64,000 nucleotides of DNA from Ruegeria lacuscaerulensis (GTDB lineage: Bacteria > Pseudomonadota > Alphaproteobacteria > Rhodobacterales > Rhodobacteraceae), in the NCBI RefSeq assembly GCF_013033355.1, contig NZ_WQDY01000003.1:124001-188000 (forward strand). The letters are read 5' to 3'. Below the pieces are notes generated by a model that ran no database searches, was not told the DNA's origin, and saw nothing but the letters and a program-made list of their open reading frames with translations. The translations under genes were made by a program, and so were the position numbers. Below, piece after piece: positions 3,395-28,950 of this stretch (within the stretch, counting starts at the first letter, position 1; the number at the start of each line of letters is the position of its first letter).

Positions 3395-4117
3395 TCAGGG
3401 TCGAGTGTGTGGCCCGGCGTCGGACAGGACCAAGCCCTCAAGCTCGCGGATTAGCTTGCGGGCCATCGCATCCTCATAAGCTTCGCATCCGACGGCAACC
3501 TCGACAAAGGCGTCGGGGCCTAGAATAACCCAAGCATTGTAGTAAGCGGATAACTCACTAATCTGTACGTCGCGCTTGTCCCCGACATTGGCGTCATCGG
3601 GGCCGATCACTAAGCCGTTGATAGTGATTCCGCCCGCTTGCAGTGCTTGTTTCACCTCGCGGGGGTGAGGGCCAATGTTGTGCTTTCCGTCGCCAGAAAG
3701 GTCCAGCGTTTGCTTCCAGCACTCGGGCTGTTGGGACAGTAATTCAGCCCCAAACAGCATTGCCGATCCAACTGCTGTCCCCTGAGGCGCCGAGCTGCGC
3801 GTTACCGAGTTTAACAGGTTTGAAATGCCAGCTAGTTGTTCGTCGGATCGGATTTCTGTCCAGTCCAGCAGCATGCGCTGATGACTGGCCTCACTCCATT
3901 CGAATACGGCGAGCCGCACCGCAGGGCCAAGGCCCGAAAGAAGCAGTTGCTTGACCTTGGGTTGTTGCAGGGCAGCGGCCAGACCACCGAGTTGCAACCT
4001 GTATTCGGCGCTATCGACCGAGCCAGAGACATCCAGACCCAATGCAAGGGCCTGTCTGCACTCAGACAGGGCGGGTGTTCCCAAAAAGGCTGCGACAGCG
4101 GCAAGGTACCGGATCAT
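3395..4117 (-). CDS. DUF1194 (VWA-like) secreted protein, second of a tandem pair
   Basis: A 240-residue protein with a short signal peptide (MIRYLAAVAAFLGTPALSE). It has a von Willebrand A-like core: LGLDVSGSVDS gives a DxSxS metal-site motif near residue 29, and LDLSGDGKHN supplies the second acidic loop. These features define DUF1194. Its start overlaps the stop of the preceding paralogue by four bases, so the pair is translationally coupled. The function of DUF1194 is not established; extracytoplasmic protein binding through a metal-dependent VWA site is an inference. Confidence 0.8.
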   Translation of the reverse strand: MIRYLAAVAAFLGTPALSECRQALALGLDVSGSVDSAEYRLQLGGLAAALQQPKVKQLLLSGLGPAVRLAVFEWSEASHQRMLLDWTEIRSDEQLAGISNLLNSVTRSSAPQGTAVGSAMLFGAELLSQQPECWKQTLDLSGDGKHNIGPHPREVKQALQAGGITINGLVIGPDDANVGDKRDVQISELSAYYNAWVILGPDAFVEVAVGCEAYEDAMARKLIRELEGLVLSDAGPHTRP

Positions 4118-4821
4118 TTTGGCGCATCACCGGACAAAGCGCCGATTTGCAGGCCCTGCAATTCCCTCTCAAGCTTCCGGCGCATGGCGCGTTCGAAGTC
4201 CTCAAACCCTTGCGCCACTTCAAGAAACGCGCCCGGGCCATGCAGGACATTGTTCTCGAAAAACGGGATAAGGAACAGCTCGCCTTCGAAATCAGCAGCG
4301 TTGATGACCAGCCCGTTTACCACGACGTCCTGAAACGGAAAGTGGCGGTAGGCCGAATCCGGCCCGTACCCGTCATTGTTCGACCCATCACCAGACAGAT
4401 CAATGGTCTGGAAAAGGCAGGGCGGGGCTTGCTGCATCAGTGTCGCGCCAAAAGCCAACGCATATCCCATCGCCGTGGCCGATCCGCTGCCGGAACGAAC
4501 TGATTGCTGGATCGTCTTGGCTGCAGCCAGCAAATCCGCCCGTGTACGGATCATCGACCAGTTCAGAATGACGCGCTGCGTGCTGCGCCCGCTCCATTCA
4601 TAGACCGCAAGCGCAACGGGCATTGGCGATGAGAAAAACGCCTCGGTCACTTCAGGCGCGACAAGAGCCGCGGCCAGGCCCTGCCTTTGCAGTGTGTCTT
4701 CTGTGGCGTCTACCGAGGTCGATATGTCCATCGCCAAGGCTAGCGCCAGTCGGCAGGTCTCGGCCCGCAAGGGGCTGGCCAATACGGCCAAGCCCAAGGT
4801 TGCCAGCCAGCGGATCACCAA
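4114..4821 (-). CDS. DUF1194 (VWA-like) secreted protein, first of a tandem pair
   Basis: A 235-residue paralogue of the next gene. It has a signal peptide (MVIRWLATLGLAVLASPLRAE), the metal-site motif LAMDISTSVDAT near residue 30 and the later TIDLSGDGSNNDG loop. The shared YEWS, NGLVI and GPGAFLEVA/GPDAFVEVA segments show that the two arose by duplication. It overlaps the end of gloA by seven bases and the following paralogue by four, giving a three-gene coupled unit. Role unknown. Confidence 0.8.
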   Translation of the reverse strand: MVIRWLATLGLAVLASPLRAETCRLALALAMDISTSVDATEDTLQRQGLAAALVAPEVTEAFFSSPMPVALAVYEWSGRSTQRVILNWSMIRTRADLLAAAKTIQQSVRSGSGSATAMGYALAFGATLMQQAPPCLFQTIDLSGDGSNNDGYGPDSAYRHFPFQDVVVNGLVINAADFEGELFLIPFFENNVLHGPGAFLEVAQGFEDFERAMRRKLERELQGLQIGALSGDAPK

Positions 4822-7190: not shown

Positions 7191-7508
7191 ATGCGCCTAT
7201 ATGGACTAAAGAACTGTGATACCTGCCGTAAGGCACTGAAATCATTGGGAGGTGTTGATTTTGTCGACGTGCGAGCGGATGGGGTGCCCGAAATAGTGCT
7301 GTCACAGGCATTTACACAATTCGGCGAGGCTTTGCTCAACACCCGGTCCACGACATGGCGGGGCCTAAGCGAAGACGAGCGCGCGCGGGCACCGTTGGAG
7401 CTGTTGCACGATCATCCGACCTTGATGAAACGTCCTTTGATCGAGCGTGACGGGCAGTTTTTTCTTGGTTGGACGGCGGCGACGAAGGCTGCTCTTGGCG
7501 TCGACTGA
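7191..7508 (+). CDS. ArsC/Spx-family protein (YffB-like)
   Basis: A 105-residue thioredoxin-fold protein. The N-terminal MRLYGLKNCDTCRKAL carries Cys9 and Cys12 in the CxxC position of the ArsC/Spx superfamily, and the end has the family RPLIERDGQFFLGW segment. The size and the absence of a longer arsenate-reductase C-terminus point to the YffB/Spx-like branch rather than a true arsenate reductase. The biochemical role of this branch is uncertain. The downstream membrane protein gene begins 41 bases later. Confidence 0.78.
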   Translation: MRLYGLKNCDTCRKALKSLGGVDFVDVRADGVPEIVLSQAFTQFGEALLNTRSTTWRGLSEDERARAPLELLHDHPTLMKRPLIERDGQFFLGWTAATKAALGVD

Positions 7509-7549
7509 GCGGATGCTTATCTGCAAAGGCGCAAGCAAGAGGGCGAAAG

Positions 7550-7918
7550 ATGCGTAACGCAGCGATGATTTTGGGTGTGATTGCCGGGCTAATCGGCATG
7601 TTGGTCGGTTTTGTCGGCTATGGATATGTCGAACTGATCGACCGGTTCGGAGAGATCGACGGCCTTGCCGAGCAGGTCGACAACGCGCAGCTTATCCAGG
7701 CTATGTCGATCCTGGCACCTTTGCTGGCGATTGCCGGAGGGGCTATGGCCAAGGCGAGGGCATTGATTGGCGGGGCATTGTTGCTAATTTCAGCCGGCGG
7801 CATGTATTACGCGTTTGGGTTCAATGCCTTTACCATGTTCCCGGTTGCATTTGCCGGGGTGGCAGGGGCCCTTGGGCTGGCCGCAGGTAAACCGGACGAG
7901 CCCAAGGCGCATTTCTAA
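7550..7918 (+). CDS. Small integral membrane protein, 122 aa
   Basis: The protein is mainly hydrophobic: segments near residues 4-27, 48-66, 70-90 and 92-112 suggest four membrane helices rich in Gly and Ala, with a charged loop DRFGEIDGLAEQVDN between the first two. I do not recognise the family. The start at ATG 7550 is preferred over the longer frame from 7469 because the extra residues are not hydrophobic and overlap the previous gene. It ends two bases before the convergent DoxX gene. Confidence 0.6.
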   Translation: MRNAAMILGVIAGLIGMLVGFVGYGYVELIDRFGEIDGLAEQVDNAQLIQAMSILAPLLAIAGGAMAKARALIGGALLLISAGGMYYAFGFNAFTMFPVAFAGVAGALGLAAGKPDEPKAHF

Positions 7919-7919
7919 A

Positions 7920-8438
7920 TCACTTTAGACGCAAGATGCGGTCTATTGAAATGGGGCCTGCACCGTTGATCACGATGACCAGGAACAGGAAAGTCCACAT
8001 GACGCGTTGGTCCATCAAGGTGATGGCATTGTCGAACAGCCCACCCAGTTTCACACCGTGACCGGCGACATCAACGATGGTTTGAACCCATACGAAGCCG
8101 ATCATGGCCAGGGCTGCGACGCGGGTGAGTAGACCGACCAGCAGCAATGCCGGCAGAACAAACTCGGCCACGGTGCCTAAAAAGATCACGATACGCTGGA
8201 AGAAGGTCATCTGGGTGACGTCATACAAAACGGCTTCAGCCGCTTTGGGGAAGATCTGGCCAAAGGCACCGGCTGACGCCGAGAAGATCGACCCGTCAAT
8301 CTTCAGAGTGGCCGAATTCCAGTAGTAAACAAGCAATACAGCAACAAAAACAAGCCGTGCCAGGGTCGGTGTCAGCCAGTTGGCCGAGCTGTCCAGCCGT
8401 CCCAGGACATTGTTGTGAAGAGAGATCAGGGCAGTCAT
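7920..8438 (-). CDS. DoxX-family membrane protein, last gene of the bufferin-type operon
   Basis: A 172-residue protein with about four membrane helices of the DoxX type (LARLVFVAVLLVYYWNS, VAEFVLPALLLVGLLTRVAALAMIGFVWVQTIV, VMWTFLFLVIVING). DoxX proteins often close operons that encode DUF692/DUF2063 pairs and are thought to act in the inner membrane, perhaps in redox steps or peptide handling. Its ATG overlaps the stop of the DUF2063 gene by four bases, so it is translationally coupled. It might be called bufD by analogy; its biochemical role is unproven. Confidence 0.82.
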   Translation of the reverse strand: MTALISLHNNVLGRLDSSANWLTPTLARLVFVAVLLVYYWNSATLKIDGSIFSASAGAFGQIFPKAAEAVLYDVTQMTFFQRIVIFLGTVAEFVLPALLLVGLLTRVAALAMIGFVWVQTIVDVAGHGVKLGGLFDNAITLMDQRVMWTFLFLVIVINGAGPISIDRILRLK

Positions 8439-9196
8439 TGTGCCAGCCTTTCGATAGTCACAGAAGTAATGACGCCACCTTGAAGCAGAGGCGCCAGAGT
8501 GGCCCCAAGGTCAAACTCGGGGGTGGTAGCGGATACGCTTTCGAATGCTTGACCGATCGTATGACCAGTCTGCATCTTAGATATCCAATCTGCGCCGCCT
8601 GCAGGCAGCAGATGCGGCGCGGGATCAAATTCGGGGCGGGTAACCAGCACGTCTTCAGCACCGGGCTGGGGTTTGGGGGCGTCGTCTATGGTGTTGAACC
8701 GCCACAAAGAGAATATTGGCCACTCAGAGCGGACCACCTGCATTGATGGTGCGAATTCCAGCTTGGCCCGCATGACCTGTTCTGGGTCCACAGCCAGTGC
8801 ATCACCCGGTGCAGGCGTGCTGTCCGCCGCGTGGTAGGAGCGACGCAGGGCCAGTTCCAACCGGGCAACGTCGGGCAAATATCCCAGGTGCGAAAGCTGC
8901 TCCATTCCCGCTAGAAATTCAGGGAACGCTTCGCCGTAGAACATCATCATCGGCGTCGTCGGGGGATGCTGGCGTAGGAAAATTCCCGACAGACCATCCA
9001 TGTTCTGAGCGCCTAACAGCTTCGCGATTACCGGGAAGGCCTGATGCATTGCTTCGGTCAGGGACACCGCAACATTGTTGCGATAAACGCTGAACCGTCG
9101 GCCTGCCGGTTGGGCGCTTGCATCCACCAACCCCTCTGGAACCGCCTCAGACGGGTTCAAAAGGGCAGTGTGAAAGGTGGATTGAGACACGCTCAT
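8435..9196 (-). CDS. bufC: DUF2063 protein, MNIO partner (BufC/HvfC-like)
   Basis: A 253-residue protein. The N-terminal domain (about residues 1-95; [30 protein letters not shown]) is the DUF2063 'putative DNA-binding' domain. In MNIO systems this type of protein instead acts as the partner that recruits the precursor peptide to the DUF692 enzyme. The C-terminal half is a less conserved helical/beta region. It overlaps bufB upstream and the DoxX gene downstream by four bases each, forming a coupled chain. DNA binding is possible but less likely given this context. Confidence 0.85.
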
Positions 9197-10050
9197 GCCG
9201 GGATGCGGTCCAATGCCGCTTGTGCCCGGTCAGCCTCGGCTCGAAGAACAGGCCAGTCGGGAACATCTGTATCCCATTCGATCAGGACCGGTTTCGGGCC
9301 CGATCTTTCCAGCACGTAGTCCAGCAAGGCCCAGACGGGGTCCACGACCTCGCGCCCGTGGCTGTCGATCAGCAGGGGGCGACCGTGGTCGTCCTCGTCT
9401 TCGTCGTGGCCGCCTAGATGAATTTCGCCAACTTTTTCCAGTGGATAGGCGTCAACATAGCTCTGTGGTGAAAAGTCCAGATTGGTGGCCGAGACGAAAA
9501 CGTTGTTCACGTCTAGCAAAAGGCCGCAGCCAGTGCGGCGCGAGATTTCGCGCAGGAAGTCAGGCTCGGACCACGTACTTTCCTCAAACGCCAGATAACT
9601 GGAAGGGTTTTCCAGTAGCATCTGCCGCCCGACAACCTCTTGCACCTGATCGATGTGCTCGCAAATCCGGGCAAGTGTTGCGTCAGTATAGGGCAGAGGC
9701 AACAGGTCGTTCAGGAAGTGGCTGTCATGGGTTGACCACGCCAGATGCTCGGAGAAACTGGCTGGGTTCAGCCAGCCGACCAGATGTTTCAGACGGGCCA
9801 GATGATCGGGGTCCAATGGGCCTTCGCCGCCAATGGACAGGCCGACACCGTGCACAGAAACAGGAAACTGTTCCGACAGGTGGCGCAGCTGCGCCAGCGG
9901 GCGTCCGCCATCGCCCATGTAATTCTCGGCATGGATTTCCAGCCATGCCACCGGATGCGCGTGATCCAGAATCTGTTGAAAATGCTGGGGTTTGTATCCG
10001 ACACCCGGCGCTGCGGGCAGTCTGTTTGATCGAATAGCGTGGTCCAGCAT
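9193..10050 (-). CDS. bufB: DUF692 multinuclear non-haem iron oxidase (BufB/HvfB-like MNIO)
   Basis: A 285-residue TIM-barrel protein of DUF692, the family of MbnB and TglH. Likely iron ligands appear in order: [57 protein letters not shown] and IEWD. MNIOs use two or three iron ions and oxygen to rebuild cysteine residues in a precursor peptide. In bufferin systems they form thiooxazole groups that bind copper. The next gene upstream encodes a matching four-cysteine peptide, which supports this role. A 72-base gap with a hairpin separates the two genes. Confidence 0.9.
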
Positions 10051-10078
10051 TACAATAGTCTCCGGTTCGCGACAAAGA

Positions 10079-10098
10079 GGCGGGCGACAAGGCCCGCC
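10079..10098 (-). promoter_or_regulatory. Hairpin between bufA and bufB
   Basis: GGCGGGC and GCCCGCC form a perfect seven-base GC-rich stem with a six-base loop in the only sizeable gap of the operon. On the transcribed strand it is followed by a weakly T-rich stretch. It may partly terminate or protect the bufA part of the mRNA, so that the peptide is made in excess over its enzymes. Confidence 0.45.
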
Positions 10099-10122
10099 CC
10101 TTCGGTTTTCCTAAGCGCGGGC

Positions 10123-10425
10123 TTATGCCGGCAGGTCGCGGTCCAGCGGCTCGAGCGAGCCTTTGCGGTCCGAACCGTCTGCGGTCTGGGGCAGCTCGAT
10201 ATCGGCGCAGGTGCCTGCGTCGACCAGCGTCCATGCGTTACCCTGATAATCAACGGTCGAAGTACCGGCGCAGGTGGTGCCGGGGCCTGCTGCGCAATCG
10301 TTTTCACCTGCCAGCGAAACGCCATAGCACTTTTCTTTGGCTTGGGCGGTTGCGGTGGTGGCGGCACCGGATACGGCGGCTGCGACTGCGGTTGCGATAA
10401 CCAGGGATTTAGCGGTGTTCGACAT
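10123..10425 (-). CDS. bufA1: DUF2282 bufferin-type precursor peptide (BufA1-like)
   Basis: A 100-residue exported peptide: an Ala-rich signal peptide (about 1-28, ending ATAQA) followed by a core with four cysteines at 33, 44, 52 and 73. The segments [17 protein letters not shown] and TCAG match DUF2282, the bufferin precursor family. In characterised bufferins, as I recall, the two central cysteines become thiooxazoles and the outer two form a disulfide, and the product binds copper in the periplasm. The acidic tail after Cys73 has no cysteine. Genes for the enzyme, its partner and DoxX follow on the same strand. Confidence 0.88.
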
Positions 10426-10599
10426 CTCGGTAATCCTTTTGATGACTGCGTATGTCCGTGTTTGACACCAACAAAGGTAGTAGCTTGCGGGGCAGAGTTG
10501 AATTCACGAGCCCGTGTCTCACAACCCCGTCAGGCACTGTCATGCCCTATTGCAAGTTAACACATTGTTTTTGAAATCTAAAAAGGAAAATATTTCAAC

Positions 10600-10621
10600 C
10601 CGGCCCCTATCTTGGGGCCGG
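10600..10621 (-). terminator. Intrinsic terminator after thrS
   Basis: CCGGCCCC and GGGGCCGG form a perfect eight-base stem with a six-base loop, just beyond the thrS stop. On the minus strand it is followed by a T-rich stretch (GTTGAAATATTTTCCTTTTT). It separates thrS from the bufferin operon, which must therefore have its own promoter in 10426-10600; I could not identify that promoter with confidence. Confidence 0.65.
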
Positions 10622-10646
10622 ATCAGCGGCGAATTTTCACCGAATG

Positions 10647-12605
10647 TTACAGCAGATCGGGCGGAGTTGCCGACTTGGAAAGTTCAATTGTTACAGCCTC
10701 AAGTGATTGAACCTGTGTTTGTTTCTCACCCAGACGGCGAACGCTGACGGTGCGTTCCTCAACTTCACGGTGTCCGATGGCCAGAATGACAGGCACTTTG
10801 CCGACTGAATGCTCGCGAACCTTGTAGTTGATTTTCTCGTTGCGAATGTCGGCCTCGGCCCGGACACCAGCGGCGCGCAGGGTTTCGACCACTTCATTGA
10901 CGTAGTCATCCGCCTCGGAGGTGATCGAGGCGACAACCACCTGACGCGGGGCGAGCCAGAAGGGCAGTTTGCCTGCGTGCTCTTCGATCAGAATGCCGAT
11001 GAAACGCTCGAACGATCCCAGTGTTGCCCGGTGCAGCATGAAGGGGAGATGTTTTGCGCCATCTGCGCCGATAAAGCTGGCATCCAGACGCTCGGGCAGG
11101 TTGGGGTCAACCTGCAGCGTGCCGCATTGCCACGTCCGCCCGATCGCGTCGGTCAGGGTGAATTCCAGTTTGGGTCCGTAAAACGCGCCTTCGCCTTCGA
11201 GGATCTCATAGTCGTACCCGGCCGCCTTGCAGGCATCACCAAGGGCCTTTTCCACCAGATCCCAGCTTTCATCCGACCCGATGCGCTTTTCCGGGCGGGT
11301 GGATAGTTTAATCGTCCAGTCGTGGAAGCCCAGATCGGCATAGACCTTGGATAGGAAGGCAATGAACTTTGCGGTCTCGGATTCGATCTGATCCTCGGCA
11401 CAGAAGATATGGCCGTCATCCTGCGTAAAGCCGCGCACCCGCATGATCCCGTGCAGCGCGCCCGAGGGTTCATAACGTGCGCAAGACCCGAACTCGGCCA
11501 TGCGTAGCGGCAGGTCGCGATAGGATTTCAGACCCTGATTGAACACCTGCACGTGGCAGGGGCAGTTCATCGGCTTCAGCGCGTTGATCGCCTTTTCGCG
11601 GGCGTGATCTTCGTCAACCTCGACGATGAACATGTTTTCCTGGTATTTGTCCCAGTGGCCCGAGGCCTCCCACAGTTTGCGGTCAACAACCTGAGGCGTG
11701 TTCACCTCGACATAGCCGTCCCGTTCCTGCATCCGGCGCATATAGTCCTGAAGGGTGGTGTAGATTTTCCAGCCATTCGGATGCCAGAAGATCTGGCCGG
11801 GGGCCTCTTCCTGCATGTGGAACAGGTTCATCTCGCGACCCAGCTTGCGGTGGTCGCGCTTGGCGGCCTCTTCCAGCATATGCAGGTGCGCTTTCAGCTT
11901 TTCCTTGCCGGTGAAAGCCACGCCATAGATGCGTTGCAACATCGCGCGGTCGCTGTCGCCGCGCCAGTAAGCACCAGCGATGGACATCAGTTTGAACGCA
12001 TCGCCGGGCAGCTGGCCGGTGTGCTGCAGGTGTGGGCCACGGCACAGGTCCTGCCAGTGGCCGTGCCAATACATGCGCAGCGGCTCATCGCCCGGAATGG
12101 ATTCGATCAGCTCGACCTTATAGGGCTCGTTATTGGCTTTGTAGAATTCGATCGCGCGGTCGCGGTCCCAGACCTCGGTGGTGACGGGGTCGCGCTTGTT
12201 GATGATCTCTTTCATCTTTTTCTCGATGAGGCCGAGATCTTCGGGCGTGAACGGCTCTTCACGGTCAAAGTCATAATACCAGCCATTGTCGATGACGGGG
12301 CCGATGGTGACTTTGGTGGCGGGCCAGATTTCTTGCACGGCACGCGCCATCACATGCGCCAGATCGTGGCGGATCAGCTCATTGGCCTGTTCCTCATCCT
12401 TCATAGTATGGATGGCGATTTGTGCGTCGGCCTCAATAGGCCATTGCAAATCCCAATGCTTGCCGTCGACCGTGGCCGAGATTGCCTTTTTGGCCAGCGA
12501 GGTCGAGATATCGGCTGCCACCTGCGCAGGTGTGATGCCTGCGTCATAGGATCGTGCATTGCCATCGGGGAAGGTGAGTGAGACGGATTTTGAATCCAAG
12601 GCCAT
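10647..12605 (-). CDS. thrS: Threonyl-tRNA synthetase
   Basis: A 652-residue class II synthetase that charges tRNA-Thr. The order of domains is normal: N-terminal TGS domain (about 1-62, [16 protein letters not shown]), editing domain with the [12 protein letters not shown] zinc motif, catalytic core with [10 protein letters not shown] (zinc cysteine) and [10 protein letters not shown], and a C-terminal anticodon-binding domain (QVVVASIT onward). The ATG at 12605 is preferred over the longer frame because CGAGGAGAGCC lies at ribosome-site distance. Single gene with its own terminator. Confidence 0.96.
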
Positions 12606-12704
12606 GTTGGCTCTCCTCGTCGGTTTGGCGCCCACTGAACGCCCGGTTGCGGGTTATTTGCGTTTGGCTGCTTTGGCAGGTGGGTGCGCGTGTGTCAAGT
12701 GTTG

Positions 12705-16565: not shown

Positions 16566-17837
16566 TCAGGCGACTTTGTTTTTATTTGCCGGGCGACGTT
16601 GAGGCTTGCGCGTGTTGGCGTTCATGAAATCGATAACCAACGGACGAATATTGTCGCGCCAGCTTCGCCCTGCGAAGATGCCGTAGTGGCCAGCGCCGGG
16701 CTCGACGTGGCTGGCTTTTTTCGAAGCGGGCAGGCCGGTGCAAAGTTCAAGCGCTGCGATACACTGGCCAGGCGCAGAGATATCGTCATTCGCGCCTTCA
16801 ACCGTTTTAACTGCTACGTCAGTGATCTTGCCGATATCTACTTTGTGTCCCGCTACAATGAATTCGTTCTTTGCAATTTCACGGTTCTTAAAGATGCGCT
16901 CCACGGTGGACAGGTAGAACTCGGCCGTCATGTCCATCACTGCAAGGTACTCATCGTAAAAGCGGTTATGTGCGTCATGGTCCGACGCCTCACCGCGCAT
17001 GACGCGCTGAATTTGGTCCGAGAACGCCTTGGAGTGGCGATCCCCATTCATCGACATGAATGAGGCAAGCTGCAGCAGGCCGGGATAGACCATACGCCCG
17101 ACGCCTTTGTACTTGAAGCCCACGCGTTGAATCATCGTTTCTTCCAACTGCCCCATGGTCACGCGGCGGCCAAAATCGGTGACGTCAGTTGGCGTTGCAT
17201 CCGGGTCCACTGGTCCTCCGATCAGCGTCAGGGTGCAGGGTTGTGCCTTTGGCTCGACTTCGGCCAAATAGGCTGTCGCGGCCAAGGTCAAAGGAGCAGG
17301 TTGGCAGACGGCAACTACATGCGTTTCAGGGCCGAGCTCCTTCATGAAATCAACAAGATATAGCGTATAGTCCTCGACATCGAACTTGCCCTCAGACACA
17401 GGGATGTCGCGCGCATTATGCCAATCGGTGACATACACTTCGCAATTTACCAGCAAGCTTTTGACTGTGGACCGCAACAGGGTGGCGTAGTGCCCGGACA
17501 TGGGCGCAACCAACAGAACCTTGCGAGGTTGTTCTTTTCGTCCGTTGACGCGGATGTGGATCAGGTCACCGAAAGGACGCTCCAACACAGGCACGATGTC
17601 TACCAAATGGTCCTTACCATCTTCGCAGGTGAAGGTGCGAATGCCCCAGTCGGGTTTGACAATCATTCGCTGAAATGTCCGTTCGGTCACTTCGCCCCAG
17701 GCAGCCATCATGCTGAACGCGGGATTGGGTACCATTGCAAACAGCGGGTACGAAGCCATCGCACTTGCTGTCGCGCCCATCCATTGGTTGGTATTGCGCA
17801 TGGTTTCCATCAGATCGTAGGTCATCATGTAGCGCAT
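16566..17837 (-). CDS. phaZ: Intracellular polyhydroxyalkanoate depolymerase
   Basis: A 423-residue intracellular PHB depolymerase. The nucleophile is probably Cys178 in VAVCQPAPLTLAA, the lipase-box-like motif of this family; the acid and base lie in GANDDISAPGQC and PGAGHYGIFAGRSW. It hydrolyses stored PHA granules to 3-hydroxyacids in the cytoplasm. The ATG at 17837 has GGGAG upstream. It is divergent from phaC, with a TTCTGCATAGCAGAA palindrome in the shared 114-base control region. Confidence 0.92.
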   Translation of the reverse strand: MRYMMTYDLMETMRNTNQWMGATASAMASYPLFAMVPNPAFSMMAAWGEVTERTFQRMIVKPDWGIRTFTCEDGKDHLVDIVPVLERPFGDLIHIRVNGRKEQPRKVLLVAPMSGHYATLLRSTVKSLLVNCEVYVTDWHNARDIPVSEGKFDVEDYTLYLVDFMKELGPETHVVAVCQPAPLTLAATAYLAEVEPKAQPCTLTLIGGPVDPDATPTDVTDFGRRVTMGQLEETMIQRVGFKYKGVGRMVYPGLLQLASFMSMNGDRHSKAFSDQIQRVMRGEASDHDAHNRFYDEYLAVMDMTAEFYLSTVERIFKNREIAKNEFIVAGHKVDIGKITDVAVKTVEGANDDISAPGQCIAALELCTGLPASKKASHVEPGAGHYGIFAGRSWRDNIRPLVIDFMNANTRKPQRRPANKNKVA

Positions 17838-17913
17838 GGATTGGGCTCCCTATGAGTGTCAGCCTGTACGTAAGGACTTTTCGTCGCTTTGCCTTATAGT
17901 TTCCGCGACGTTA

Positions 17914-17928
17914 TTCTGCATAGCAGAA
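17914..17928. promoter_or_regulatory. Operator-like palindrome (PhaR site) between phaZ and phaC
   Basis: TTCTGCATAGCAGAA is a near-perfect palindrome containing CTGC-N3-GCAG, the pattern reported for PhaR binding in Paracoccus. It lies 24 bases ahead of the phaC ATG and in the shared region with divergent phaZ. Confidence 0.6.
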
Positions 17929-17951
17929 AATAGTAGGGGGGAATTGTTAAA

Positions 17952-19754
17952 ATGACAACAACCGAAGACCGATCGCCAGAGCTGACCGAGGAACACCTTG
18001 AACGGCTTAAAGAAAATATGAACAAAGTCGAAGCTTTGTCGAAGCGGCTGGTTGAAGTCATGGCTGGAAAAACTGCGCATTCCCCCGCGTTAGATGGCCC
18101 GAATCAAGATCTTTTTGCAAAAGCAGCAACGGCCTATATGACCGAGGCATGGCAAAATCCTGCCAAGCTGTTGGAGCATCAGATCGAGTTTTGGGGAAAG
18201 TCAGTTCTGAACTTTGCCGAAGCGCAGCAGGCTCTTGCGTCCGGAAACCCCGATGCTGCGGAACCCGGCCCGAAGGACAAGCGGTTTTCCAATCCGATGT
18301 GGGACACAAACCCCTATTTCCGCTTTGTACGTCAGCAATACCAGACAAACGCCCAAGCGATCGCTCAGGCGGTCGCATCAGTTGACGATATGCCCGAAAA
18401 AGACAAGCAACGGCTTCAGTTTTTCTCGCAGCAGATCATCGATATGATGTCCCCTACGAATTTTCTGGCCACAAATCCCGATGCCTTGGAAAAGGCGGTT
18501 GAGACCGAAGGTCAATCCTTGATTAAAGGTCTGGAGAATCTCGTCTCAGATCTCGAAGCCAACAATGGCGAGATGGTCGTACGTCTGGCCGATGACAGCG
18601 CGTTCGAGATTGGAGGCAATATTGCCACTACACCGGGTGAGGTGGTCTACCGCAATGATTTGATGGAGCTGATCCAGTACAAACCCGCGACCGAGACCGT
18701 TTTCGAAACACCGATTATTCTCTTTCCGCCTTGGATCAACAAGTTCTACATTCTGGACCTCAAGGCGCAGAACAGCCTGATCAAGTGGGTGACTGAACAA
18801 GGCTATACGCTATTCGTTGTCAGTTGGGCGAACGCGAACGCCTCCCACGCGGATATCGGGATGGGCGACTATATCGAGCAAGGCTATCTGACCGCGATTG
18901 AGCAGGTGAAACAGATCTGCAAGGTCAAGCAGGTCAACGCTGTAGGCTATTGTATTGCGGGAACGACGCTTAGCCTGACCTTGTCGCTGCTCAAACAGCG
19001 CGGGGACAAGTCGATCAAGTCGGCCACATTCTTCACCACCTTGACCGACTTCGGAGATCAGGGCGAGTTTACCCCGTTCCTCCAGAATGACTTTGTCGAC
19101 GGGATCGAGGATCAGGTCGGCAAAGACGGTGTTCTCAAAGCCTGGGTGGTTGGGCGGACGATGTCTTTCCTTCGGTCCAATGACCTGATCTATGGTCCTG
19201 CAATCCGTAGTTATATGATGGGCGAAACCCCCCCGGCCTTTGATCTGTTGTTCTGGAACGGGGATGGAGCAAACCTGCCCGGTCGAATGGCAATCGAATA
19301 CCTTCGGGGTCTTTGCCAAAGCAATGATTTCGTCAATGATGGGTTCGAGCTATTGGGGCATAAGCTGCATATCCGCGATGTGGATGTGCCATTGATGGCC
19401 ATAACATGCGAAACGGATCACATCGCGGCATGGAAAGCCTGCTACCGTGGCGTGCAGCAGATGGGCTCGCGGTCAAAAACGTTTGTTGTCTCGCAATCCG
19501 GCCATATCGCGGGGATTGTCAATCCGCCCAGCAAGAAGAAATACGGACACTATACCAATCCCGATCTAAAGGCGGATGCCGATGATTGGATGAACGAGGC
19601 AGATTTCCATGAGGGATCGTGGTGGCCTCTTTGGGAAGCTTGGTTGAAAAAGCGTTCTGGCAAGCAAATCCCGGCGCGTGAACCGGGCGATTCGGACCAT
19701 CCGTCTTTGTGTCCGGCACCCGGAAGTTATGTTTCGGTCAAGGCAACCGATTGA
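17952..19754 (+). CDS. phaC: Class I poly(3-hydroxyalkanoate) synthase
   Basis: A 600-residue synthase that polymerises 3-hydroxyacyl-CoA into PHA at the granule surface. The catalytic triad is visible: Cys334 in the lipase-like box GYCIAG, Asp489 in CETDHIAAW and His518 in SGHIAGIVNPP. The segment PPWINKFYILDL and the FVVSWANAN region are class I hallmarks, and the length is typical. The ATG at 17952 follows TAGTAGGGGGGAA. Its neighbours are the depolymerase, phasin and repressor genes. Confidence 0.96.
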   Translation: MTTTEDRSPELTEEHLERLKENMNKVEALSKRLVEVMAGKTAHSPALDGPNQDLFAKAATAYMTEAWQNPAKLLEHQIEFWGKSVLNFAEAQQALASGNPDAAEPGPKDKRFSNPMWDTNPYFRFVRQQYQTNAQAIAQAVASVDDMPEKDKQRLQFFSQQIIDMMSPTNFLATNPDALEKAVETEGQSLIKGLENLVSDLEANNGEMVVRLADDSAFEIGGNIATTPGEVVYRNDLMELIQYKPATETVFETPIILFPPWINKFYILDLKAQNSLIKWVTEQGYTLFVVSWANANASHADIGMGDYIEQGYLTAIEQVKQICKVKQVNAVGYCIAGTTLSLTLSLLKQRGDKSIKSATFFTTLTDFGDQGEFTPFLQNDFVDGIEDQVGKDGVLKAWVVGRTMSFLRSNDLIYGPAIRSYMMGETPPAFDLLFWNGDGANLPGRMAIEYLRGLCQSNDFVNDGFELLGHKLHIRDVDVPLMAITCETDHIAAWKACYRGVQQMGSRSKTFVVSQSGHIAGIVNPPSKKKYGHYTNPDLKADADDWMNEADFHEGSWWPLWEAWLKKRSGKQIPAREPGDSDHPSLCPAPGSYVSVKATD

Positions 19755-24206: not shown

Positions 24207-25511
24207 TCACACCCCCAGCCGATCCCGCAAAGCAAACCACGTCATCGCCAGCACCAGCAGGGGGCTGCGCAAGGCGGGGCCTCCGGGGAAAGGTAGGGCG
24301 GGGACGCGGGCCATGGTGTCGAACCCTTCGGCCTGCCCCTGAATGGCCAGTGCCATCAATTGCCCCGCATGGGTGGCTGTTCCGACCCCGTGACCAGAAT
24401 AGCCCGAGGCTGACAGGATATTGGGCGCAACCCGCGTCAGATACGGCATCCGCCGCATGGTAATCGCCAGCGTGCCGCCCCAGGCATAGTCGATTTTGAC
24501 GTCGCGCAGGTGTGGAAAAATCTCGACCATTGGTTTGCGGACCTTGGCGGCAATGTCTGCCGGGAAGCGATAGCCATAGCTTTCGCCGCCGCCAAACAGC
24601 AATCTGTTATCCGCGCTAAGGCGGAAATAGTTCACCACGAATTTCGTATCGGCCACCGCCACGTCTCGGGTCAGAACACGGGCGGTATCGGTGCCCAAAG
24701 GCTCGGTCGCGGCGATAAAATTGTTGATCGGCATGACCCGCGCGGCGACTTTGCCGTTCAGGCCGCCAAGATAGCCGTTGCAGGCCAGAACGACGTGATC
24801 GGCTGTGACCTTGCCCTGTGCGGTGTGGACTATGGCGGGTGCGGTTTCCTCGACCCCCGTCACCTCGGTGCTTTCATACATCCGCACGCCTGCCTTGGCT
24901 GCTGCCTGCGCCAGACCCAGAGCATAGTTCAGCGGATGTAGATGCGCGGCACCCGTGTCCAGATAGCCGCCGCGATAGGCGGGCGAGGGGCACAGACCGT
25001 GGCTTGCGCCTTCGTCCAGCAGTTCCATCTGGTCATAGCCATAGCGGTCGGACAGATGCGCGGCGTGGTCGTGCAATTCCTGCTGCTCGCCTGCGGACAG
25101 GCCCAGAACGGCAACGCCCGGTTTCAGGTCGCAGTCAATCTGGTGCTTGGCGATCAGGGATTTGACCAGCGCCTTCGCGTCCTCGGCCAGATCCCACAGC
25201 TTCGCCGCATCGTCGTCGCCAACCAGCCGCTCAAGATCTTCCTGATCCATCCGTTGGGCGCTGCCCAATTGCCCGCCATTGCGGCCTGATGCGCCAAAGC
25301 CCACACGATGTGCCTCAAGCAGCACAACGCTGAACCCGGCCTCGGCCAGATGCAGCGCAGCGGACAGGCCGGTATAGCCGCCGCCCACCACGCAAACATC
25401 GGCCTTTTCATCACCCGCCAGCACCGGAAAGCGGTCAATCGAATTGGCCGTGGCCGCGTACCAGCTGGCCGGGTATTCAGCCTTGCGGTCGTTGGAATAA
25501 AGCAGGTTCAT
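24207..25511 (-). CDS. puuB: FAD-dependent oxidase, gamma-glutamylputrescine oxidase type (PuuB-like)
   Basis: A 434-residue DAO-family flavoprotein. The N-terminal dinucleotide fold is clear (ADVCVVGGGYTGLSAALHLAEAG, about 38-60), then GFGASGRNGGQLG, typical of PuuB/ordL proteins. The late GYSGHGVGTATHAGQLMA segment is also typical. It would oxidise gamma-glutamylputrescine to the aldehyde. It is the last gene of the operon and lies six bases after the puuA-like gene. Confidence 0.85.
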   Translation of the reverse strand: MNLLYSNDRKAEYPASWYAATANSIDRFPVLAGDEKADVCVVGGGYTGLSAALHLAEAGFSVVLLEAHRVGFGASGRNGGQLGSAQRMDQEDLERLVGDDDAAKLWDLAEDAKALVKSLIAKHQIDCDLKPGVAVLGLSAGEQQELHDHAAHLSDRYGYDQMELLDEGASHGLCPSPAYRGGYLDTGAAHLHPLNYALGLAQAAAKAGVRMYESTEVTGVEETAPAIVHTAQGKVTADHVVLACNGYLGGLNGKVAARVMPINNFIAATEPLGTDTARVLTRDVAVADTKFVVNYFRLSADNRLLFGGGESYGYRFPADIAAKVRKPMVEIFPHLRDVKIDYAWGGTLAITMRRMPYLTRVAPNILSASGYSGHGVGTATHAGQLMALAIQGQAEGFDTMARVPALPFPGGPALRSPLLVLAMTWFALRDRLGV

Positions 25512-25517
25512 CGCGGA

Positions 25518-26876
25518 TCATACGTTCAGCAGTAGATGCTCACGCTCCCACGGAGAGATGACCTGCAGGAACTCTTCATACTCGGCGCGTTTGACGATGC
25601 CATAGACGCGGGCAAACTCGGGGCCCAGAACCTCGTGCAGGGCGGTCGCTTCATCGAACAGGTCCAGAGCATTGCCCATGACCTGAGGGATATCGCCTTC
25701 GCCTTCGTAAGCGTCGCCATAGAACTGACGGCGCGGGCGTTCCTGTTGGACCAGGCCCAGATAACCGCAGGCCAGTGACAGCGCTATGCCCAGATAGGGG
25801 TTGCAGTCCATCCCGGCGATGCGGTTTTCGACGCGCCGCGCCTCGGGCCCCGACAGAGGCACACGGATGCCGGTGGTGCGGTTGTCGCGCGCCCATTCCA
25901 GATTGATCGGCGCGGCGTGATCTTTCACATAGCGGCGATACGAGTTCACATAGGGCGCCATCACAGCCAGACCCGAGGGCAGGTGGTTCTGCAACCCGGC
26001 GATGAAGTGGTAGAACGCGTCCGTCTCGCCCCCTTGTGGACCCGAGAAGATATTTTGCCCCGTCTCCATGTCGATGATCGAATGGTGGATATGCATGGCC
26101 GAGCCCGGCTCGTCCACGATCGGTTTCGCCATGAAGGTGGCAAAACAATTGTGGCGCAGCGCGGCCTCGCGGATCAGGCGTTTGAAATAAAATACCTCAT
26201 CCGCCAGCTTGACCGGATTGCCGTGGCGCAAGTTGATCTCCAGCTGGCCCGCGCCGCCTTCTTGCGTAATGCCGTCAATCTCGAATCCCTGATGCTCGGC
26301 GAAATCGTAGATGTCGTCTATCACCGGGCCGAATTCGTCCACGGCCGTCATCGAGTAGGCCTGCCGCGCCGCCGCCGGACGGCCCGAGCGTCCCATCATC
26401 GGCTTGATACTTTGTGCGGGGTCGACGTTGGGGGCGACCAGAAAGAACTCCATCTCGGGCGCCACGACGGGTTTCCAGCCCTTGTCGTGATACATCTGGA
26501 CCACGCGTTTCAGCACATTGCGCGGGCTAAACGGGATCGGGTTGTCATCACGGTCATAAGCGTCGTGGATCACTTGCAACGTCCAGTCGCCCGTCCACGG
26601 CGCGGCGGATGCGGTCGTGAAGTCGGGCTTAAGGATCATGTCCCGTTCGATGAACCCGTCCTCACCCGCGGCCTCGCCCCAGTCGCCGGTAATGGTCTGG
26701 TAAAAGATGCTGTCGGGCAGGTGGAAATAGCTTTGCTTGGCGAATTTCGAAGCTGGCACAGCCTTGCCACGCGCGATGCCGGGCAGGTCCGAGATAATGC
26801 ATTCGACCTCGTCCAGTCGGTGGCCTTCGAAATAGCTGCGGGCTGCCTGTGGCAGTTGGTCTGTCCAGTCGGCCAT
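25518..26876 (-). CDS. puuA: Glutamine-synthetase-family ligase, gamma-glutamylputrescine synthetase type (PuuA-like)
   Basis: A 452-residue glutamine synthetase family protein, shorter than true GlnA. The metal and ATP-site signatures are present: PEMEFFLV, EGGAGQLEINL, GSAMHIHHSI and NRTTGIRVP. It likely joins glutamate to putrescine or another amine with ATP. Its ATG overlaps the amidotransferase stop (26876). It lacks the GlnA tyrosine adenylylation loop, as PuuA-like proteins do. Confidence 0.85.
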   Translation of the reverse strand: MADWTDQLPQAARSYFEGHRLDEVECIISDLPGIARGKAVPASKFAKQSYFHLPDSIFYQTITGDWGEAAGEDGFIERDMILKPDFTTASAAPWTGDWTLQVIHDAYDRDDNPIPFSPRNVLKRVVQMYHDKGWKPVVAPEMEFFLVAPNVDPAQSIKPMMGRSGRPAAARQAYSMTAVDEFGPVIDDIYDFAEHQGFEIDGITQEGGAGQLEINLRHGNPVKLADEVFYFKRLIREAALRHNCFATFMAKPIVDEPGSAMHIHHSIIDMETGQNIFSGPQGGETDAFYHFIAGLQNHLPSGLAVMAPYVNSYRRYVKDHAAPINLEWARDNRTTGIRVPLSGPEARRVENRIAGMDCNPYLGIALSLACGYLGLVQQERPRRQFYGDAYEGEGDIPQVMGNALDLFDEATALHEVLGPEFARVYGIVKRAEYEEFLQVISPWEREHLLLNV

Positions 26877-27556
26877 CAGGCCCTCTCTTTCTTCAAAAAC
26901 TCCGCCATGAACTGCCCGATTTTGGGGTTGTCGTCATTGGCGGGCAGGCGGTCAGTGGCCGCTTGCATCAATTCATCGGGGACCACGCCCTTGCCGCGTG
27001 TCTCGATCAGGCCCTGGATAAAGCTGTCACCATATTCAGGGTGGGCCTGTACGGTCCAGATCGTGTCGCCATAAGCCACCATGGCGTTGCGACAGAAATC
27101 GTTGGTACCGGTGACGCGTGCGCCGTCGGGTAGGGCGACTACCTGATCCTGATGCCACGCATTCAGCGTAACTGTTTGGCCATCAAGGTCATAGTCGGTG
27201 CGCCCAACGGCCCAGCCTCCGGTGAACTTTTCAACCTTTCCGCCCAGCGCCTGTGCGATGATCTGGTGGCCAAAGCAGACGCCAATCAGCGGCTGGCCTT
27301 TGTCGCGGATCGCGCGGATCAGATTTTCCAGCGGGGGTATCCACGCGTGATCCTCATACGCCCCATGGCGCGAGCCGGTGATGACCCAGCCGTCGGCAGA
27401 GTCTGTGCCGTCAGGGAACTGGCCGTCCACCACGTTGTAGGTCTGAAACGTAAAGCCGTTGCCGCCCAGCAGGGTACGGAACATGCCGTCATATGTGCCG
27501 AAGTCTGAACGCAGCTCATCCGGAGGGTGGCCGGTTACAAGGATGCCGATTTTCAT
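26876..27556 (-). CDS. Class I glutamine amidotransferase-like hydrolase
   Basis: A 226-residue class I glutaminase-fold protein. The catalytic residues are Cys94 in IGVCFGHQ and His172/Glu174 in VQAHPEYGD. In this operon it could cleave the gamma-glutamyl bond of gamma-Glu-GABA as PuuD does, but its motif (GVCFGHQ) is closer to the GMP-synthase-like group than to E. coli PuuD, so the assignment stays open. A palindrome AATTTGATCAAATT sits ten bases upstream of the ATG. Confidence 0.75.
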   Translation of the reverse strand: MKIGILVTGHPPDELRSDFGTYDGMFRTLLGGNGFTFQTYNVVDGQFPDGTDSADGWVITGSRHGAYEDHAWIPPLENLIRAIRDKGQPLIGVCFGHQIIAQALGGKVEKFTGGWAVGRTDYDLDGQTVTLNAWHQDQVVALPDGARVTGTNDFCRNAMVAYGDTIWTVQAHPEYGDSFIQGLIETRGKGVVPDELMQAATDRLPANDDNPKIGQFMAEFLKKERA

Positions 27557-27565
27557 AGGTCACCA

Positions 27566-27579
27566 AATTTGATCAAATT
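27566..27579. promoter_or_regulatory. Palindrome AATTTGATCAAATT before the amidotransferase gene
   Basis: A perfect 14-base palindrome in the 59-base gap between the two halves of the gamma-glutamyl-polyamine operon, ending ten bases before the ATG. The same 14 bases occur again at 28996-29009. Position and symmetry suit a repressor operator. Confidence 0.6.
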
Positions 27580-27615
27580 CATTCTAACGAACCAAAAGGG
27601 GCCGGGCAAGGGGGG

Positions 27616-28950
27616 TCAGACGGCCTCGACGTAGCTTAGCCAGTGCTCTTCTGGGGGGCGCTCGGCGAAGCGGCGGATTTCCTGCCGTTTGGTCATCGCC
27701 AGAAAGCGGATCATATCAGCGGGGAAGATACGCGCCACGTGGGGATCGGATTCGAAGGTAGTGATCGCGGCCTCCCAATCGCCGGCCAGTTGGGGCAGGC
27801 CGTCGATATCATAGGCGTTACCGGTGATCGGGGCGGGCGGGTCGGTTGCGTCCTCGATCCCGTTCATCGCAGCACCCAGAACGGCGGCCAGCATGAGGTA
27901 AGGGTTGATGTCGCCTCCGGCCACACGATGTTCAATCCGGCGGGCGGCAGGGGCGCCGCCGGGAATGCGGAGGGCGGCAGTGCGGTTCTCATAGGCCCAG
28001 CTGGCGCCGGTGGGCGCGTGGGCGCCGGGAACCAGCCGGGTATAGGAATTGCCATGCGGCGCAAAGATCAGTGTGCTGCCGGGCATCGCCGCCAGACAGC
28101 CTGCAATGGCGTAGCGCAGCGTGTCCGTCCCCTCGGGGCCTTCATTGTCAAACACATTGCGGCCCTGATCGTCTACAACCGAGAAATGCACATGCATTCC
28201 GTTGCCTGCGTCATCGGCATAGGGTTTGGACATGAACGTCGCGGTGAACCCGTGTTTGCGGGCAAGACCGCGCGTCAACACCTTGAAAAGCCATGTATCA
28301 TCAGCACAGCGCATTGCGCCCTGATGGTTCAGGTTGATCTCGAACTGGCCAATACCGCTTTCGGAAATGGCGGTCTGGGCGGGAATGCCCATCGCGGCGC
28401 AGCCATCGTAAAGCTCGGTGAAAAAGGCATCGAATGCGTCCATCTCGGCCATTGACAGCACGGCCTCATCCACCAGCCTGCGCCCGGTAATGGGGTTCAT
28501 CGGCGGTTGTGGCTGCGCGCCCGAGGAATCGAGCAGAGTGAATTCCAGTTCGGTCGCCGCGATCACGGACCAACCGCGCTGGGCATAGCGGTTCAGTACA
28601 GCGCTCAGCGCGTGGCGGGGGTCTCCGGCGAAGGGGGTGCCGTGGTCGTCGTACAGACACATCGGCACCAGTGCGGTGTCCACCTCAAGCCAAGGCATAG
28701 GGACCGCACCGCGATCGGTGGGTAGCAGCACACCATCGGCATCACCGGATTCAAACACCAGCGGACTGCCGTCAATATCCGCGCCCCACAGGTCCACATT
28801 CAGCGCCGAGAACGGCATCCGCACGGAGCCTTTGTCCAGCTTGTCGGAATACGAGGGCGGCACGCGTTTGCCCCGCAACTGACCGTTCAGGTCACAGGCT
28901 GCAACGCGAAAACTGTGCAAGGCGCTCAGGTCCATCGGGGGCTCCATCAT
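27616..28950 (-). CDS. Second glutamine-synthetase-family ligase
   Basis: A 444-residue paralogue of the PuuA-like protein. It keeps ATELEFTLLD, ESGIGQFEINL, GNGMHVHFSV and ENRTAALRIPGG. It starts at ATG 28950 (the next codon is also ATG) with GGGGGA upstream. The two ligases in one operon probably differ in amine substrate. It is the first gene of the minus-strand run and has its own copy of the palindrome upstream. Confidence 0.82.
   Translation of the reverse strand: MMEPPMDLSALHSFRVAACDLNGQLRGKRVPPSYSDKLDKGSVRMPFSALNVDLWGADIDGSPLVFESGDADGVLLPTDRGAVPMPWLEVDTALVPMCLYDDHGTPFAGDPRHALSAVLNRYAQRGWSVIAATELEFTLLDSSGAQPQPPMNPITGRRLVDEAVLSMAEMDAFDAFFTELYDGCAAMGIPAQTAISESGIGQFEINLNHQGAMRCADDTWLFKVLTRGLARKHGFTATFMSKPYADDAGNGMHVHFSVVDDQGRNVFDNEGPEGTDTLRYAIAGCLAAMPGSTLIFAPHGNSYTRLVPGAHAPTGASWAYENRTAALRIPGGAPAARRIEHRVAGGDINPYLMLAAVLGAAMNGIEDATDPPAPITGNAYDIDGLPQLAGDWEAAITTFESDPHVARIFPADMIRFLAMTKRQEIRRFAERPPEEHWLSYVEAV

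Follow-up and report, generated by a model that had tools for sequence, protein, structure and literature searches.

A class-1 bufferin (Buf1) operon in a Ruegeria-like bacterium, with conserved elements before and after its precursor gene

Described bufferin systems and the present locus

Two bufferin families, with thiooxazoles, have been published, and the anatomy given for class-1 bufferins (Buf1) is a core of precursor, MNIO enzyme, DUF2063 protein and DoxX protein, in which the central cysteines of the precursor are modified and the outer two are joined in a disulphide (PMC12452194, in part). Here, we describe a locus of this type, bufA-bufB-bufC-doxX, which lies in this order on the minus strand at 7920-10425 of a stretch of 64,000 nucleotides (contig NZ_WQDY01000003.1; the whole stretch is called the window below), itself part of a draft genome (37 contigs, 4.64 Mb). 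Our results lead us to propose, at a probability of roughly 93%, that this is a chromosomal Buf1 operon of a Ruegeria-like bacterium, working in the steps set out further below. The first-pass annotation of this DNA had read the locus as a bufferin-type operon, and indeed the published Buf1 description fits it, while the NCBIfam profile MNIO_BufB ('MNIO family bufferin maturase') scores BufB at 379.4 bits for a cut-off of 310. At 94% identity, Ruegeria lacuscaerulensis strain HKCCC1264 has the closest named BufB, and most of the matches ranked next are from Ruegeria, hence 'Ruegeria-like'. The genes are as follows.

10123-10425, minus strand: bufA, 100 amino acids, Buf1 (DUF2282) bufferin precursor
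9193-10050, minus strand: bufB, 285 amino acids, MNIO (DUF692) bufferin maturase
8435-9196, minus strand: bufC, 253 amino acids, DUF2063 partner with an RRE-like C-terminal domain (PME type 1)
7920-8438, minus strand: doxX, 172 amino acids, DoxX-like membrane protein

The four adjoining open reading frames were all recovered where they had been annotated, together with the four-base overlaps said to join the last three (bufB/bufC at 9193-9196 and bufC/doxX at 8435-8438), and bufA is separated from bufB by 72 bases.

When compared to the closest described operons, the locus shares with Caulobacter CC3254-CC3257 the order DUF2282, DUF692, DUF2063 and DoxX, the last a marginal match here, and with CC2907-CC2905 the first three of them (PMC3511200, in part). 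As in the Buf1 class, the precursor has four conserved cysteines and a putative signal peptide (sections of PMC12452194). Bufferins have also been grouped with oxazolin and fontiphorin in a proposed class, the captophorins, and the members oxazolin, fontiphorin and gonophorin, which are 5-thiooxazole peptides, depend like the present system on an MNIO and a DUF2063 partner (PMC13097082, in part); their precursors consist of EGKCG repeats, whereas the precursor here is a DUF2282 domain. The pearlin (TglHI) and methanobactin (MbnBC) systems have an enzyme related to BufB by sequence, and the BufC fold is like that of 8hi7 and weakly like MbnC, but their substrates differ and BufB scores far under the cut-offs of the NCBIfam profiles for MbnB (55.1 bits against 325, which rules out membership of the methanobactin enzymes) and ChrH. 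The system itself is already known, as an ordinary Buf1 cluster, and a tandem operator before bufA and a hairpin after it are modest additions. Note that the main text of PMC12452194 does not contain the words promoter, terminator, hairpin, Roseobacter or Rhodobacterales, and that no publication on this operator or hairpin appeared among the matches listed, judged by titles and abstract openings, although the original PNAS bufferin paper, outside this search, may discuss such features.

The four proteins and their conservation

Conservation was followed in 80 loci picked by their BufB as the best relatives, so that close kin are over-represented in the sample. In all 80, the bufA-bufB-bufC-doxX order and strand are kept, which excludes a chance arrangement. 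The gene thrS lies upstream in 79 of them, while the remaining locus begins where its contig does, and with starts assigned by script the four-base overlap is found in 74/80 loci for bufB/bufC and in 37/80 for bufC/doxX. The profile searches confirmed the DUF2282, DUF692 and DUF2063 assignments of the first-pass annotation, with DoxX falling just short of its cut-off. Indeed, the small protein annotated as a four-cysteine DUF2282 protein reaches 85.2 bits on PF10048 (DUF2282; Pfam cut-off 22.4) and has exactly four cysteines, at 33, 44, 52 and 73, all of them kept in 81/81 precursors. Its putative signal peptide, judged by eye from a Lys near the N terminus, an Ala-rich stretch and AQA before KEKC, would end at about Ala29.

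The tail that follows Cys73 in BufA has 27 residues and a net charge of -4, and had been regarded as a possible local variation. Over the 81 precursors, the tails range from 22 to 28 residues and from -2 to -6 in net charge, and the motif RD-x-P occurs within the last nine residues of every one. Among the 30 best-scoring family loci, whose ends were read by eye, 22 carry RD-x-P, 2 have RDLP with a further extension, 5 show short tail ends (e.g., GSLEPVKM and GTLEPMDM) and 1 ends in RDMAG; similar ends occur outside the family (KRDLPS in L152, ERDMPKM in L161 and SRDPA in L163). Since RD-x-P is general among the 81 precursors and has such counterparts outside the family, the acidic tail is, judging from these sequences, old rather than local, and the earlier suggestion does not hold. 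One family member (L024) has two tandem DUF2282 precursors, and tandem bufferin precursors are on record (PMC12452194, in part).

BufB matches PF05114 (MbnB_TglH_ChrH) at 351.5 bits for a Pfam cut-off of 25. Eight of its residues (H67, H102, E147, D180, H211, D229, H231 and E258) are invariant in 81/81 sequences and align by eye with identical residues of 8hci chain D; we take these conserved His, Asp and Glu residues to be the iron ligands. BufC scores 81.2 bits on PF09836 (DUF2063; Pfam cut-off 27.2), and its AlphaFold model, computed from 33 sequences (that of the window and 32 of the 34 picked, L116 and L128 being excluded because their assigned starts looked off), has a mean pLDDT of 92.5. 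The best solved matches of the model are 8hi7 chain A (E 3.2e-06), 8hci chain A and 3dee (NGO1945; E 5.6e-05), and its match to MbnC (7dz9 chain C) is weak (E 0.13). The A chains of the TglHI entries 8hi7 and 8hci are taken to be TglI, and these modelled resemblances to solved MNIO partner proteins support a partner role for BufC. The 253 residues of BufC agree with the length published for DUF2063-RRE fusions, and the Pfam description of DUF2063 as a putative DNA-binding domain has since been corrected in the literature (both in sections of PMC12452194). The doxX gene stands in the same place in 80/80 related loci.

It could be argued that the four-cysteine protein stays unmodified, as a plain disulphide protein of the periplasm, and that the MNIO has a different substrate, as precursor genes without adjacent MNIO genes exist and may be unmodified (PMC12452194, in part). 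We find this hardly credible, since precursor and MNIO are neighbours in 80/80 loci and a search of the host draft genome found one DUF2282 place and one MNIO place, both in this operon, and no second of either.

Tandem operator, promoter and stem-loop around bufA

The elements found around the precursor gene are listed below in the direction of transcription of bufA, after the upstream gene.

10647-12635: thrS, upstream of bufA
10596-10625, minus strand: terminator-like hairpin, after thrS and before the bufA promoter
10504-10532, minus strand: tandem operator, TnACG-N4-YGTGA-NN-CACG-N4-YGTGA, upstream of bufA
10497-10502, minus strand: weak -35-like TTCAAC, abutting the operator, predicted from sequence
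10474-10479, minus strand: -10-like TACCTT, predicted from sequence
10073-10104, minus strand: stem-loop in the bufA-bufB gap, putative attenuator or processing element

The operator pattern was derived by aligning the regions before bufA in relatives. With up to 4 mismatches it is present in 79/80 upstream regions (up to 260 nucleotides) and matches 45 of these perfectly, while ten rounds of shuffling gave 0-1 of 80; in this count L140 is the miss and L118, where the contig ends, was left out. As the pattern came from these same regions, searches of whole genomes test it better. In the genus set (54 genomes, the search tool's own grouping), the operator at up to 2 mismatches was found near DUF2282 in 53/53 genomes with a DUF2282 match, and in the 54th (G177) it stands before the bufA start. 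The 23 other places of the pattern in these genomes do not exceed background, because each has two mismatches and the pattern, when reversed as a control, matched 39 times. In the 149 genomes of the family sample, at up to 1 mismatch, 52 distinct places were found, of which 48 lie within 600 nucleotides of DUF2282 (one of these, in G063, downstream of the domain) and 4 elsewhere, the reversed control giving one match. At this threshold the tandem operator accompanies DUF2282 in 48 of the 106 family genomes that have the domain, so not in all; in the genus it occurs almost exclusively at bufA. In a genome without DUF2282 match (G112), a perfect operator match (L173:4317-4345, minus strand) lies just upstream of an open reading frame that, on inspection by eye, resembles an L,D-transpeptidase.

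A TAnnnT element begins 23-25 nucleotides after the operator in 68/79 loci, while its mean density is 0.014 per position; a sigma-70 consensus scan of 7700-10800 returned 0 promoters. Given this fixed distance, the operator would abut a weak -35, and it sits where an activator would be expected to bind. The site might instead serve thrS, perhaps in its termination, as it falls within the thrS-bufA gap in the loci with thrS upstream (79/80). Such an assignment is very unlikely, as the spacing to the -10-like element is that of 68/79 loci, 48 of the 52 family places are within 600 nucleotides of DUF2282, and the site is present in G070 (locus L018), which has no thrS within the 1.5-kb flank. The terminator-like hairpin at 10596-10625 is weak evidence when taken alone, since 5 terminator-like sites occurred in the scanned stretch against 3.0 (standard deviation 1.5) in shuffles.

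In Caulobacter, the homologous operons belong to the sigma-F targets and carry the motif GTAACC-N16-CGAA (PMC3511200, in part). Sigma factor and NrsF genes occur in some Buf1 clusters only, without defining them; NrsF acts as the anti-sigma factor in the bufferin control of Caulobacter. In contrast to the Caulobacter class-1 operons, the present one has the tandem operator instead of a sigma-F motif: GTAACC-N16-CGAA at up to 1 mismatch was found in 8/80 upstream regions against 1-6 in ten rounds of shuffles, a slight excess that we do not count as a site. NrsF was not found in the host genome by a search whose Caulobacter control was positive and which did not cover sigma factors; Caulobacter-type sigma-F control was rejected on these two grounds. 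Among the 8 + 20 window proteins scanned with profiles, no DNA-binding regulator reached its cut-off, and for the ArsC-family protein at 7191-7508 the Spx/MgsR profile stays below threshold (46.3 against 75.05). These differences in control also suit a Buf1-type cluster that here serves another stress (chromium, cadmium or another metal, or oxidative) rather than copper: it was under chromium and cadmium stress that the Caulobacter homologues were identified as targets of sigma-F (PMC3511200, in part), bufferins may act on other metals (PMC12452194, in part), NrsF was not found and a different element stands at the promoter. We consider this a minority possibility, unlikely beside the copper-binding Buf1 operon that we favour.

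The strong stem-loop between bufA and bufB was followed in 79 distinct gaps of the 81 (lengths 48-322), with G-T pairs and one mismatch allowed. The best stem has at least 9 pairs in 79/79 gaps, and in 68 of them none of 30 shuffles reached it; folding of the gaps gave a mean z of -2.8, with 61/79 below -2 and the window itself at -1.69. As a control, 78 segments of 72 nucleotides were taken from within the bufB region of these loci: 9 pairs were reached in 17 of them, a stem better than in all 30 shuffles was seen in 1, and z fell below -2 in 7 (mean z -0.29). The gap sequences diverge widely between genera while the stem persists. In an alignment of 18 chosen sequences, three rows of which look shifted, 85.6% of cells are paired against 50-64% when slid. 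The likeliest role for the stem-loop would be to keep the precursor transcript above the enzyme transcripts.

Taken together, the conservation of operator and hairpin, which is observed directly, suggests that the bufferin operon of the family may be run by a putative, almost single-target activator acting on two tandem TnACG-N4-YGTGA units beside a weak -35, and not by sigma-F/NrsF, with the conserved hairpin after the precursor gene setting the precursor-to-enzyme ratio. We regard the odds of this combined proposal as evenly balanced, both the activator and the attenuation being read from sequence.

Proposed mechanism, distribution and meaning

By analogy with the family, modification, export, disulphide formation and copper binding would proceed as follows. 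The BufA precursor would be made with a Sec signal peptide, and in the cytoplasm BufC, through DUF2063 and its RRE-like domain, would present it to BufB, a multi-iron oxidative enzyme expected to convert Cys44 and Cys52 into thiooxazoles. After export, a Cys33-Cys73 disulphide would form, and the mature peptide would chelate excess copper in the periplasm, with DoxX as an accessory membrane protein of putative role. Transcription would start from the promoter behind thrS, under a putative activator on the tandem operator abutting the -35, and the hairpin after bufA may lower read-through or shield the bufA segment of the message, which would give more precursor than enzyme.

Several points weigh against this interpretation. 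The DoxX match is marginal (PF07681, 23.5 bits against a Pfam cut-off of 23.6), and NCBIfam gives the precursor no match above cut-off, the best being BufA2 at 17.4 bits against 60, a score that rules out membership of the BufA2 bufferins. As NrsF was not found, a metal response of the Caulobacter type cannot be assumed. For the stem-loop, a TTT run follows within 10 bases in only 28/79 gaps, so that classical termination is not general, and covariation is mild on the 18 chosen sequences, the covariation score being reached by 10/500 shuffles, the cells changed on both sides by 6/500 and the pairs changed on both sides by 282/500. In addition, no experiment on this organism was found. In the operon, these points stand beside the genes, their families and order, and the invariant enzyme residues, which are direct observations.

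Other features of the window are the following; no Rfam family at gathering score and no tRNA or tmRNA was found in it.

3395-4821: two DUF1194 proteins side by side
7191-7918: ArsC-family protein and small membrane protein, convergent with doxX, detected in 74/80 and 63/80 related loci, respectively
16566-19754: PHB depolymerase and PhaC synthase genes, divergent neighbours
24207-28950: two glutamine-synthetase-like genes flanking a class-I amidotransferase, with an adjoining FAD oxidoreductase

On a larger scale, DUF2282 was matched in 53/54 genus genomes, 106/149 genomes of the family sample and 65/190 of the class sample, and the best-scoring loci picked by DUF2282 have bufB within the 1.5-kb flank in 30/30 (genus), 30/30 (family) and 27/29 (class) cases. 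In G177, the sole genus genome missed, bufA starts normally and then enters a run of 1000 N (L172:3238-4237, from within bufA into bufC), which rules out a loss of the bufferin there. With the locus in 54/54 genus genomes, a copper-buffering modified peptide would be standard equipment of one marine genus, and the 106/149 of the family sample indicate that the bufferin is common in the family too. The operator may offer a direct handle on the signal that induces the bufferin here, a handle that family annotation alone does not give; if the proposed control is true, naming the regulator that binds it would reveal the cue to which the cell responds by making bufferin.
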